Source: Mastigocoleus sp. MO_188.B34
Lineage (GTDB): Bacteria; Cyanobacteriota; Cyanobacteriia; Cyanobacteriales; Nostocaceae
Assembly: GCF_030065675.1 (NCBI RefSeq)
Contig: NZ_JASJDK010000016.1
Coordinates: 1-64,000, forward strand
DNA length: 64,000 nt
Reading direction: 5' to 3'
Both the position numbers and the translations under genes were made by a program. The notes beneath the pieces are model-generated. The model worked only from the letters and a program-made list of their open reading frames with translations. It was not told where the DNA came from and ran no database searches. This document shows, in pieces, positions 3,769 through 33,737 of the stretch. Every line of letters starts with the position of its first letter. Position 1 is the stretch's first letter.

Positions 3769-4436
3769 CTTTGGATGCTAATGCTCGTGCATACAACAAT
3801 AGCTTTTCAGTAGATCCAAGAAAAGTTATAAGACAATAGGGTTAAGTTAAGAATTTTTGTGAAACAAAATTGATGTAGAGACGTAGTATGCTACGTCTCT
3901 ACCAATAAATTCAGACTTATCTGAACCGGTATTAATGTGCCGGTTGCGTAAGTTCTAGTATTATTTGTGAAAGAAAATTAGATAGAAAAAGAAAAGTGGG
4001 ATATCCCTCAATACAGCGATCATCTACAGCAACAAGCGATCGCAAAAAAGATTACGGATTTTTTTATAAATCAATTATTTAAATCATCTATTAGAAAACG
4101 AGAAGTTTTTGAGCGTCATCAATTGCTGAATTAATCAAAAAGTTTTCTACTAATGTTAATAAGTAATTGCATGTAGCCATCATTTTGCTCGCAATATCCT
4201 AATTTCAAATTGCAGATTTGACGAACTATTATTAAACTATAAAGAAAGCAATTAATCACAATGTCCAATTCACTTTATCTCAACCAGTATTTTTCGTCTA
4301 TAAATGATTAGAAAAAGTGCCCACTCACACCAAGTCAACTGATATTTATATACAACAAAAGATTAAAGTGAATCATTAGAAAGATTCTTGGGGTAATACT
4401 ATGCATCAAAAATCTTAGATTCTAAATGTCACAGCA
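3769..4436. other. Intergenic region with one dispersed palindrome
   Basis: No coding frame is recognised. The region contains a 28-bp palindrome of the GTAGAGACGT family at 3875-3902 and a HIP1 site near 4037. The rest is AT-rich. Confidence 0.6.
3875..3902. repeat. 28-bp palindrome, GTAGAGACGT family
   Basis: Arms GTAGAGACGTAG and CTACGTCTCTAC are perfectly complementary around a 4-nt centre. Copies of the same length and arms are found at 33672-33699 and, with variant arms, at 22460-22487. Confidence 0.85.
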
Positions 4437-19409: not shown

Positions 19410-22400
19410 TTAAGCTGTCACTCCTTCCAATTCTTCATCGGTCAGATCGTATAATTCCCGCAACTTCTGTAATTTATCATCATTAACTTCCCAAAAACCT
19501 CGCCCGTGGGCTTCTAGCATTCTCGCTACAATGTTACGAAACGCCTCAGGATTACTTTTACGTAACTTTTCTGCCATTTCTGCATCCAAAGCGTAGGTAT
19601 CTGCGGCTTGGTCGTATACCCAATCGTCAGTAAAATCAGCAGTACCACCCCAACCAATCAAGGCTGTCATACGTTGGGAAATTTCGTAAGCACCACCGGA
19701 ACCCTGATCCGCCATTGCTTCAGCCCATTTAGGGTTTAACAATTTGCTGCGATACTCCATTCGCAATAAATCGTCTAAGTTTCGAGGGGTAGTATCTTTA
19801 GAAAAACTTTCCACAAAACTGGTTGTGACTTTTTTCCCGGTTTGTTTTTCTGCAGCTTTCTTTAAGCCGCCAGTATTAGCGTAATATTCCTGAATATCAG
19901 TTAAACCGTATTCAACCGAATCAATTTCTTGGACAATGTGATCGGTACTTTGCAGCAATTGAGTTAGTACTTCCGGACGAGCTTGTCCTTTATCTTTTCT
20001 ACCATAACTAAAAACATTCCGACCTTCCCAAGTCTTTCCTAACTCTTCCCCTGATTCCCAATTTCCATCAACAACTTGGTCATTTACTAAGGAACCAAAA
20101 TCACCCGCAGGATTGGAAAATAGTCTTGCAGATACGTTTTCTACTCCTTGTGCTTTTAATGCTAAAGCATGTTTTTTGATAAAATTCTGGTCTTCCGGTT
20201 CATCCGCGATCGCAGCACGTTGAAACAAATCGTCTAACAACTCAATAATATTCACAAAACTATCGCGGAAAATCCCCGATAAATTCCCTAGTACATCAAT
20301 CCGCGGATGTCCCACATCAGCCAAAGGTTTGAGTTCGTAACGGACAATTCTTCCGGTACCTTCTTTCACGGGTTCTGCACCAACTAATTCCAGGAGAATA
20401 CCTAAAGATTCACCCTTAGTTTTAATTGCATCCAAACCCCATAACATTACCGCTACGGTTTCTGGATAACTTCCTTCCTGCTGCAAATGTTGACTAATAA
20501 TTTTCTTTGCAATTTCCCGTCCCCGTTCGTAAGCGCCAGGAGAAGGCATACGATAGGGATCTAAAGCATGAATATTTCTTCCTGTCGGTAAAACACCAGG
20601 ACCATCCCGTAATAAATCTCCTCCAGGTGCGGGGGGAATATACTCCCCATTCAAACCCCGTAACAAATTTGTTAACTCATCCGTACTCTGCATTAACAGA
20701 TCATGAACTAACTTTTTATGTTCGTGTTTGTCTGAGTCTTCCTGTATTTCTACTTCTTCTAACTCTTCTTCCCCAAAATAAGCTTCTAAATATGATCGCA
20801 TTTCTTCGTCGTTCGGTGCTTCACCTAACACATGCAACCCAGAGGAAAACAGACGATTTTCCAAAACCTGCAAATATTCGTACAAATCTACCAAATAATC
20901 CCTAAAAGCGCGATCGCTGAACATGCGCACGTTTTCCGGACTGAAGGGAATACCCAAACGCTTTGCTTCTGTAAACGGACAATCTGCATCTAAACCCGTA
21001 TCCACAATCTTTTTACAAATTGCTTCTTTGAGAGCATAATTCTTTTCCGGATCTTCCCGATATTCAGAAATTAAATCCCGCAGTGCTACCAATTCTTTAT
21101 ACAGTCCCGCACGACCGTAAGGCGGTACATTGTGGGAAATTAACACCCCATAACCGCGCCGCTTCGCCAAAATTGATTCAGAAGGGTTATTCGCCGCATA
21201 TATGTATAAATTCGGCAAATCTCCCAACAAAATATCTGACCAAGAATAACCAGTATTACCCAAGGGCGAACCTGGTAACCATTCCACAGTTCCATGCATC
21301 CCAAAATGCACGATCGCATCTGCGGAAAACTCATTTTGCAACCACTTATAATAAGCTGCATATTGGGGATGGGGTGTTAAATCCCGTTCAAACATTAACC
21401 GCATTGGATCCCCTTGAATTCCCAAAGGTGGTTGTACCCCAATCCACACATTACCTAGTTGAATTCCACCAACTTGCAACTCATTATCAAAGGTTTTAAT
21501 ACCAGTACCTGTCAAAGATTTCCACTGTTTTTCGATGCGAGAAGTACCTAAATATCCCAACCATTGTTCTAAACTACGGGCTTTGACACTAGAACCTACT
21601 CGACGATTATCGTCATTTGCTTGAGATATATTTTGAGATGCAAATTCTTCTTTGTTGACCGGATTTTCATCTGCTTCCTTAACCCAACGAATTAATTCTT
21701 CAGGATCTTGGGGTAATTCGCCAACATCATAACCTTGGTCTTTTAATGAATGCAGGAATTTTAATAGACTACGAGGAACATTTAATAATGCAGCAGTACC
21801 CGTAGCCCCATATCCAGGGGGAAAACCATAGAGAATAACCGCGACTTTCCGTTCAGATGCAGGTTTTTGTCTGAGATTTACCCAGCTTTTGACTCGACCG
21901 ATTAATCTTTGTACCCGTTCAGGAACTAGATAAATATCTTCTCCCACCAAACCACCCAAAGGAACAGTATCAATCGCTCCATCTAATTCGGGTAAAGCAT
22001 ATAAAACCACACTTTGCAATCCACCAATTCCCTGACGCGTCCAGGAATAAATATCTTGAATTAACAACGGTGCAGCAACAATATAAGGTACATTTTTTGC
22101 GGTGAGAATATTTACAGCAATTTGGGTTTGACGTCCCGCTTCCATGGAACCTGCGGGTCCACCCACCAAGGGAAAACCAATGGTAGAAACAATTCCATCA
22201 ACCTTGACCGCTTCCTTAGATAAAGAAAGAGTTTCGACCTTACCTTGCTGACGTTGCTGAGTTTCATATTCACTCGTCATCCAATCCCTGACAGCAACAT
22301 GTCCTTCCACACCATTAATGAAAATCGGTAAAGGAATTAAACCCGCAGCCTCAAAACGGCGAATTAACTGGGGAATATATGGTTGTTTGGTAATAACGTG

Positions 22401-23162
22401 TTTACGGTAAAGGAGAATTCCGATGACTGGGGATTTGCGATTTCTTACTTCTGAATTTTGTACAGACGTACCATGGTACGTCTGTACGTTATTTTGGTAC
22501 CATTCTAAATATGCGCGAGGAGATTCGAAATAACCTTGGTAATCGGGATGCAATAACCCCATATTCGGAGTCTCTATTGGTTGAGGAATATCACCAACTT
22601 GCAAATCCAAATATTTTTCTGCTAGCGTCCAGAATAAAGCAGCGACATTCTCAGAACCACCAGCATTCCAATAACCATAAATAATTAACCAGTTGCGTAG
22701 GTCTTGCACCTTCTGTACTGGAACATACTTTAATAATTTAGGACCAACCTTTAAAAAACTAATATAACCAGCTAATTTATCTTCTTCCCGTCCATTACCA
22801 AACTTATCAAGGATAAATTTTACCGGTTTGGGCATTCCTTTGGGCTTGTCACCAATGGAAAACGCACCAATCTTGGTGCAACTCATCAATTCCAATGCAG
22901 ACTCAAACACCAACCGGATGGGAATATTACTAATGCGATCGCTAATCCACAAAACTTGGTCGTAGTCAAATAATAAACTGGCAAAAAATACATCTGCACC
23001 ATCAAGTGCTGCTTCTACCTCAGCACGTTTAGTATTGATATCCCTGTCACTAAATACCCGAATATCTAATTGCGGACAGCGAGATATCGCCACTTTTGCT
23101 GCTTTACGGTACAAGTCAGCATTGAAAGATTCAAACCCTGCGATCAAGACGATGCGTTTCAT
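19410..23162 (-). CDS. bchH: Magnesium chelatase H-subunit family protein (BchH/ChlH paralogue)
   Basis: A 1250-residue member of the BchH/ChlH family, the porphyrin-binding subunit that inserts Mg2+ into protoporphyrin IX together with the I and D subunits. An N-terminal DUF3479-like domain (about 1-160) is followed by the large CobN/Mg-chelatase domain, with VIGILLYRKHVITKQPYIP and IVHFGMHGTVEWLPG. The N-terminus differs from the longer cyanobacterial ChlH (about 1330 residues), and CobN-type N-terminal features are absent. This is therefore probably a second, BchH-like paralogue. Residues about 226-234 are encoded by a 28-bp palindrome inserted in frame (22460-22487). Mg versus Co specificity is inferred from similarity. 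Confidence 0.87.
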   Translation of the reverse strand: MKRIVLIAGFESFNADLYRKAAKVAISRCPQLDIRVFSDRDINTKRAEVEAALDGADVFFASLLFDYDQVLWISDRISNIPIRLVFESALELMSCTKIGAFSIGDKPKGMPKPVKFILDKFGNGREEDKLAGYISFLKVGPKLLKYVPVQKVQDLRNWLIIYGYWNAGGSENVAALFWTLAEKYLDLQVGDIPQPIETPNMGLLHPDYQGYFESPRAYLEWYQNNVQTYHGTSVQNSEVRNRKSPVIGILLYRKHVITKQPYIPQLIRRFEAAGLIPLPIFINGVEGHVAVRDWMTSEYETQQRQQGKVETLSLSKEAVKVDGIVSTIGFPLVGGPAGSMEAGRQTQIAVNILTAKNVPYIVAAPLLIQDIYSWTRQGIGGLQSVVLYALPELDGAIDTVPLGGLVGEDIYLVPERVQRLIGRVKSWVNLRQKPASERKVAVILYGFPPGYGATGTAALLNVPRSLLKFLHSLKDQGYDVGELPQDPEELIRWVKEADENPVNKEEFASQNISQANDDNRRVGSSVKARSLEQWLGYLGTSRIEKQWKSLTGTGIKTFDNELQVGGIQLGNVWIGVQPPLGIQGDPMRLMFERDLTPHPQYAAYYKWLQNEFSADAIVHFGMHGTVEWLPGSPLGNTGYSWSDILLGDLPNLYIYAANNPSESILAKRRGYGVLISHNVPPYGRAGLYKELVALRDLISEYREDPEKNYALKEAICKKIVDTGLDADCPFTEAKRLGIPFSPENVRMFSDRAFRDYLVDLYEYLQVLENRLFSSGLHVLGEAPNDEEMRSYLEAYFGEEELEEVEIQEDSDKHEHKKLVHDLLMQSTDELTNLLRGLNGEYIPPAPGGDLLRDGPGVLPTGRNIHALDPYRMPSPGAYERGREIAKKIISQHLQQEGSYPETVAVMLWGLDAIKTKGESLGILLELVGAEPVKEGTGRIVRYELKPLADVGHPRIDVLGNLSGIFRDSFVNIIELLDDLFQRAAIADEPEDQNFIKKHALALKAQGVENVSARLFSNPAGDFGSLVNDQVVDGNWESGEELGKTWEGRNVFSYGRKDKGQARPEVLTQLLQSTDHIVQEIDSVEYGLTDIQEYYANTGGLKKAAEKQTGKKVTTSFVESFSKDTTPRNLDDLLRMEYRSKLLNPKWAEAMADQGSGGAYEISQRMTALIGWGGTADFTDDWVYDQAADTYALDAEMAEKLRKSNPEAFRNIVARMLEAHGRGFWEVNDDKLQKLRELYDLTDEELEGVTA
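22460..22487. repeat. 28-bp palindrome inside the bchH-like gene
   Basis: A perfect 28-bp palindrome with arms beginning GTACAGACGTACC and centre CATG. It has the same length and architecture as the intergenic GTAGAGACGT palindromes but with G-to-C changes in the arms. It encodes part of a roughly 20-residue stretch between EWYQ and SPVIGILLYR that looks like an insertion. Confidence 0.85.
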
Positions 23163-33353: not shown

Positions 33354-33737
33354 AGTATACGCCCGCATCGCTGACGCGATTTTAGCAAGGCGTGACGCGT
33401 AAGCGTCATATGGTAATTGGTAATGGTAATAAGTAATAGGTAATTAATCTCTTCATTAACTCATTTACTAATGTTGGATTAATTGTAATTACTTTACTCT
33501 GAATAGAGAAGGATAACGGAAACTAGATTTTAAGGTTTTACTACCATATAGAAATGATAAATAATTAACCCATTATCTATAAACCATTATCCGTTCTCAA
33601 AGATATTAAACATTAAAAAATGTGATATAGCGGTTTTCATTTGAATCAAATACATTTTCTAATTCCCAAATGTAGAGACGTAAAATTTTACGTCTCTACG
33701 AGGTGTACTACACTCAACCGAAAACCGCTATATCTAC
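33338..33737. other. Repeat-rich intergenic region
   Basis: Contains heptanucleotide repeats, a GC-rich insert at 33360-33410 (CATCGCTGACGCGA and GTGACGCGTAAGCGTCA) and a nested inverted-repeat element at 33624-33734. No gene. Confidence 0.65.
33624..33734. repeat. 111-bp inverted-repeat element enclosing a GTAGAGACGT palindrome
   Basis: GATATAGCGGTTTTC at 33624-33638 is exactly inverted at 33720-33734. Inside lies a perfect 28-bp palindrome (33672-33699, GTAGAGACGT with ACGTCTCTAC). The element could fold into a long cruciform or a terminator-like RNA. Confidence 0.8.

Follow-up and report, generated by a model that had tools for sequence, protein, structure and literature searches.

A small palindromic repeat of cyanobacteria, present in many copies and mobile on evolutionary time, probably came to lie in frame in a linker of a BchH-like gene of Mastigocoleus sp. 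MO_188.B34 after the split from a sister species, and the centres of its intact copies may be rewritten from other copies. The gene and three members of the repeat family lie in the 64,000-nucleotide stretch of DNA analyzed here (the window):

19410..23162, minus strand: intact BchH-like gene (ChlH paralogue) of 1250 codons, which carries the palindrome
22419..22496, minus strand: hypervariable 26-residue linker QNNVQTYHGTSVQNSEVRNRKSPVIG between YLEWY and ILLYRKHV, a recurrent repeat landing site in orthologues
22460..22487, no strand assigned: perfect 28-bp palindrome GTACAGACGTACCATGGTACGTCTGTAC, a member of GTASAGACG-N10-CGTCTSTAC, with the minus-strand in-frame reading VQTYHGTSV(Q)
33672..33699, no strand assigned: second perfect 28-bp member GTAGAGACGTAAAATTTTACGTCTCTAC, outside long ORFs
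3875..3902, no strand assigned: third member GTAGAGACGTAGTATGCTACGTCTCTAC, outside long ORFs, with a slightly imperfect centre

The original prediction placed a perfect 28-bp palindrome in frame in the BchH-like gene, between two conserved segments, with further copies in spacers of the window. All of this holds. The arms at 22460-22487 (GTACAGACGTACCA and TGGTACGTCTGTAC) are 14 nt each, 100% complementary, and without a spacer; the palindrome is read on the minus strand as N-VQTYHGTSV-Q within the ORF at 19410-23162; and YLEWY and ILLYRKHV bound the variable linker. A random 64-kb sequence is expected to contain 0.0002 perfect 28-bp palindromes, and the window has two (22460-22487 and 33672-33699). 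Moreover, the copies at 33672-33699 and 3875-3902 both lie outside long ORFs, the latter with perfect arms of 12 nt around a 4-nt centre. The copy at 33672-33699 appears to sit within a larger MITE-like repeat (TCAAATACATTTT..GTTTTCGGTTGAGTG) rather than to stand alone.

The palindrome belongs to a large family. The pattern GTA(G/C)AGACG-N10-CGTCT(G/C)TAC, which the window copy matches exactly (9-nt outer arms, 28-bp length, and a perfect dyad), has 143 exact copies in the window's genome, while a reversed-pattern control has none. The family was found in 68 of 386 sampled cyanobacterial genomes: it occurs in most genomes of the same taxonomic family and is patchy beyond, and most genera outside that family are without any copy. 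The genome of a sister species of the same genus, G001, has 126 copies, and a site-by-site comparison of the two genomes revealed several copies that are present in one sister species and absent from the other, as expected from the earlier suggestion that the family is or was mobile. The palindrome also stands in the middle of elements of at least three different MITE-like inverted-repeat families (L175/L187/L189/L190/L192; L135/L154/L185; and window 33672/L142/L143), and whole MITEs appear to be present in one sister species and absent from the other. Many matches of 83 to 86% between the two genomes were rejected as orthologous sites, as they pair paralogous MITE-like repeats, each centred on the palindrome.

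Other small repeats keep company with the family. In at least seven copies (L130:1115-1170, L347:1607, L282:632, L244:19274, L246:19888, L266:18350, and L272:969), the dyad (CA^TG) of a GTAGAGACG palindrome is the exact insertion point of another repeat, 26 nt long, which occurs in both orientations (GAGGCTAACGCCGACGCCGCAGGCTC or the reverse complement); at the L347 site this nested repeat is absent in the sister species. A short ORF of 104 aa at L130:1072-1386 has no Pfam match, looks rhodanese-like by eye, contains an in-frame palindrome with the nested repeat, and has a RAYT-like transposase gene about 300 bp away. At L128, an IS605-type TnpA/TnpB element adjoins a gene that looks by eye like cas2, and a family palindrome lies just downstream of cas2. 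Short duplications derived from the palindrome (e.g., GATGGTACGTCTCTACAA units) differ in copy number between the sisters (L288 versus L149 and L138/L289). Finally, copies embedded in heptad repeats were considered as exact 28-bp insertions without target duplication, and the register is indeed kept, yet 28 is a multiple of 7 and the observation is not decisive.

How the palindrome is tolerated in the BchH-like gene can be read from the orthologues. The gene product scores 1607.6 bits against the TIGR02025 BchH equivalog (cut-off, 829), and the canonical ChlH of the window genome is a separate gene of 1338 aa. Across 80 orthologues the linker varies from 12 to 80 residues, and none of the 80 has the window's linker residues, which supports the proposed lineage-specific insertion. 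Palindromes of the GTAGAGACG type, truncated ones counted, occupy the linker in 29 of 81 genes. They are mostly in one reading frame, the other two frames being those of the window, L056, and L051, and copies of the GTAG type represent all three reading frames (L048 is frame 1). The L056 linker holds a GTAGAGACC..GGTCTCTAC variant, and the remaining linkers hold other palindromic repeats or 7-nt tandem repeats; the linkers of L075, L078, and L087, which had been flagged for GGCAGGC, were rejected as false matches. When perfect palindromes with arms of at least 9 nt were counted in the 81 genes, 15 of 20 fell in the linker, a segment that makes up 2% of the sequence. Among the five elsewhere are those of another variable segment, which L019, L020, L042, and L076 have some 820 nt downstream. 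On a gene tree computed from the BchH-like genes minus the linker, palindrome presence requires at least 15 changes (gains or losses) and all linker states together require at least 36. The site is one where repeats of many families have landed again and again, which goes beyond the insertion first proposed. AlphaFold2 modelling, at modest confidence (mean pLDDT, 65), predicts that the linker joins a helix (residues 215 to 229) to a strand (246 to 252), and pLDDT falls below 50 at residues 229 to 241. A linker of low pLDDT that is occupied by such varied repeats indicates that the protein tolerates nearly any short peptide there.

The closest comparison for the window copy is the sister orthologue L095, with 98% protein identity, in which the linker contains 7-nt repeats and no palindrome. 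The window palindrome is so either a recent, genus-level arrival or an element lost in the sister. A clean empty site with a target duplication was unobtainable, as the sister linker consists of 7-nt repeats and exact ends cannot be set. One might argue instead that the palindromes are selected functional sites, such as protein-binding sites, terminators, or RNA processing elements, with a regulatory place in genes, and perfect dyads with common arms do recur across many genomes. Position, frame, and centre vary between close relatives, however, orthologous genes function with many different repeats or none in the same linker, and the family is wholly absent from most genera outside the taxonomic family. 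We regard a selected function as highly improbable and favor a mobile repeat that would have arrived, or been kept, in frame because it landed in a flexible linker tolerant of almost any short peptide.

What might move such a repeat? A REP-like element would be recognized at GTAG plus the hairpin by a RAYT or IS200-type Y1 tyrosine transposase and moved as a single-stranded 28-mer. Copies of the family begin with GTAG and form a hairpin, like GTAG-tagged REPs (PMC3733652), and the window genome encodes Y1 transposases, including two RAYT-like genes of 252 to 254 aa, one of them about 300 bp from a nested copy. The RAYT-like proteins, however, score 65.3 and 62.5 bits, under the NCBIfam cut-off of 80, and GTAG is paired with CTAC in the family rather than being an unpaired tag. 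Moreover, RAYT-like relatives occur in 16 of 59 genomes with copies versus 5 of 21 without (p, 1.0), and copy-number thresholds of 5 and 20 gave p values of 0.13 and 0.065. G001 has its 126 copies and zero RAYT-like relatives, and G357 has six such genes and zero copies. With no significant association with copy number over 80 genomes, we rejected a RAYT-like transposase as the driver and consider the REP-like account unlikely, although a Y1 or RAYT transposase is a possible maker of new copies.

The family also occurs in frame in other genes, as the original prediction had proposed to check. Among about 80 copies of the window genome examined for coding position, the in-frame coding copies were as follows:

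L162/L194: canonical chlH
L184/L356: smc, two copies (L356 is G000:C39:84247-85590, SMC coiled coil)
L006: nSTAND/WD40 gene

In chlH, most orthologues of the same taxonomic family keep the segment length of 22 residues; the palindrome is perfect in four genomes with three different centres, and decayed versions are found in others. The first smc site is in a coiled-coil segment of 36 residues in 30 of 30 orthologues, and the palindrome is perfect in the window genome and L374, with differing centres, and decayed to varying degree elsewhere. The insertions in chlH and at smc site 1 are likely old, since decayed versions stand at the same position in many Nostocales. At the second smc site the palindrome is present in the two sister species only, and the net gain is 9 nt compared with a palindrome of 28 nt; some target sequence thus seems to have been replaced. 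Copies in coding genes are therefore not always simple 28-bp insertions: among relatives, smc site 1 shows a net length change of 0 and smc site 2 one of +9 nt.

An unexpected result concerns the centres of the copies. We compared 20 orthologous sites of the two sister species, scoring a site as intact when the palindrome is intact in at least one of them. Of the 10 intact sites, 7 have a centre that differs on both arms, compared with 0 of the 10 defective sites (Fisher p, 0.003; the split into intact and defective was drawn after the alignments of these 20 sites had been viewed). The seven sites, at which outer arms and flanks agree between the sisters, are as follows:

chlH: centres CGAAATTTCG (window genome) and TTCCATGGAA (G001), differing at 4 position pairs (8 bases), with flanks 97 to 99% identical
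downstream of chlH: centres CGCCATGGCG and TTGCATGCAA
L006: centres TTCCATGGAA and TTGCATGCAA; a single position pair differs, a weak case
smc site 1
smc site 2: centres CACCATGGCG and TTGCATGCAA
L343
L192/L332: the centre differs and the sister copy is left unpaired, a weak case

Three sites have the same centre in both sisters (L138/L329, L149, and L347), two of them with a nested insert in one species, and the ten defective sites, whose ends are damaged or whose cores are odd, either show no change or differ on a single side. The G001 assembly is 38% contaminated, although its chlH, smc, and L006 sites have flanks 88 to 98% identical to those of the window genome. The direction of change is known only roughly; at chlH, a third genome (L196) has the centre of the window genome.

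The centres are also favored differently in different genomes. Centre TTGCATGCAA is found in 27 of 42 sampled copies in G001 versus 5 of 54 in the window genome, and frequencies over the common centres differ between genomes (chi-square p, 4e-8), with MITE amplification being part of the cause. Several of the new centres are the commonest centre of that genome; for the rare centre TTCCATGGAA of G001 chlH, no donor was found among the sampled G001 copies. Copies in the window genome keep their pairing as the sequence changes: they are 94.7% paired, and cells changed on both sides number 122, compared with 40.7 in shuffles. Because both-arm differences at intact sites are accompanied by centres favored in a genome-specific manner, the comparison suggests that the centres of intact copies are replaced in place from other copies, even in essential genes.

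Two other accounts of the differing centres were weighed. First, the insertions may be old and vertically inherited, with palindromy kept in cis by template switching between the arms and no exchange between loci. Homogenization of arms by template switching is documented (PMC8794818, PMC8604942), and the decayed versions at chlH and smc site 1 fit old insertions. Against a cis route, the four position pairs at chlH would need several mutations, each then corrected, within flanks that are nearly identical, the new centres repeatedly match the genome-wide majority centre, and the window site is empty of the palindrome in the sister. Template switching in cis could maintain palindromy, but alone it gives no account of how four pairs would change together into a sequence that other loci of the genome carry, and we think it rather unlikely as the whole explanation. 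Second, the repeat may be an ordinary selfish insertion, a cyanobacterial counterpart of the Rickettsia palindromic elements (RPE), such that apparent exchange reflects repeated independent insertion or import from strain to strain. Permissive linkers do attract repeats repeatedly, insertion polymorphism is frequent between the sister species, and a short segment brought in from another strain could look like exchange at a single site. At the coding sites, however, both species have the palindrome at the same codon with identical flanks, decayed relatives occupy the same position in chlH and at smc site 1, and defective copies never show a both-arm change of centre. Simple insertion or import is unlikely to account for the pattern, though somewhat less so than cis maintenance, and we prefer replacement in place from other copies.

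How replacement might proceed can be outlined. We infer that a hairpin or cruciform is extruded from the palindrome when the DNA is replicated and that the GTAGAGACG/CGTCTCTAC arms would let a stalled strand switch to, or recombine with, another genomic copy. A templated patch from that copy, with the shared arms as anchors, could then rewrite the centre in a single event. Patching of this kind, its ends determined by microhomology, may also put new copies in place, the net change in length leaving the reading frame intact. Insertion of the 26-nt repeat at the exact dyad of at least seven copies fits an exposed hairpin tip. Arms of 9 to 10 bp, however, are much shorter than RecA normally needs for recombination within a genome. 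Tentatively, then, it is quite possible that intact 28-bp palindromes exchange centres between loci with flanks untouched, that the majority centre drifts separately in each genome, and that short peptide segments of ChlH and SMC are rewritten as a by-product, in a homing-like concerted evolution.

Small dispersed repeats (SDR) of Nostoc were reportedly described by Elhai et al. in 2008 (doi 10.1101/gr.074336.107), and, judging by how that paper is titled and cited, it is not known to describe an exchange of centres at orthologous sites. Like the SDR (cited in PMC4390886 and PMC3733652), the family is a very short, multicopy, mobile repeat of filamentous cyanobacteria, and SDR5 is reported to insert precisely inside a HIP1 site (PMC4390886). 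In behavior the family resembles the RPE (Ogata et al. 2000, as cited in PMC6649704), in-frame palindromic repeats tolerated by proteins; here, copies are in frame in the window gene, chlH, smc (two), and the nSTAND/WD40 gene, with further copies elsewhere. RPE belong to a different phylum of bacteria, and the RPE-1 insertion is described as longer (PMC3733652). Over time, RPE are described as losing their repeat identity (PMC6649704), whereas here the intact copies appear to be renewed. Dispersed palindromes are likewise found among the GTAG-tagged REPs (Di Nocera et al. 2013, PMC3733652), which are palindromes of 20 to 40 bp that start with GTAG, some inside ORFs, a size range that includes the window copy, and the GTAG-12, -15, and -16 families occur in cyanobacteria (PMC3733652). 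In REPs, however, GTAG is an unpaired tag at one end, whereas it pairs with CTAC here (GTAC with GTAC in the window copy), and no significant link of the palindromes to RAYT-like genes was seen over the 80 genomes; the contrast is with the REPs as described, and in sequence the family may or may not coincide with GTAG-12, -15, or -16. Heterocystous cyanobacteria also have 7-nt repeats (STRR), which are tandem and not palindromic; in other orthologues STRR occupy this same linker, and palindromes often lie within them. Finally, the coding palindromes of nematomorph mitochondria (PMC6649704) are also perfect, located in protein genes, apparently actively maintained, and gained and lost between species, but they are mitochondrial, reach 284 bp, and form no single dispersed sequence family. 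A literature search by arm sequence returned nothing relevant, and the open-licence literature searched contained no report that the centres of intact copies are exchanged at orthologous sites. Small in-frame palindromic repeats are already known from Rickettsia and GTAG REPs (PMC3733652, PMC6649704), and in-place exchange of centres appears to be new.

How tiny bacterial palindromic repeats stay perfect and move is mostly unknown, though such repeats are common. If centres are indeed rewritten from other loci, the process would explain why palindromy survives in old copies and would represent concerted evolution far below normal recombination lengths. It would also be a source of mutation that replaces several protein residues at once. 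Ultimately, chlH, smc, and the BchH-like gene hold coding copies at fixed positions that can be aligned, where the process may be watched directly.
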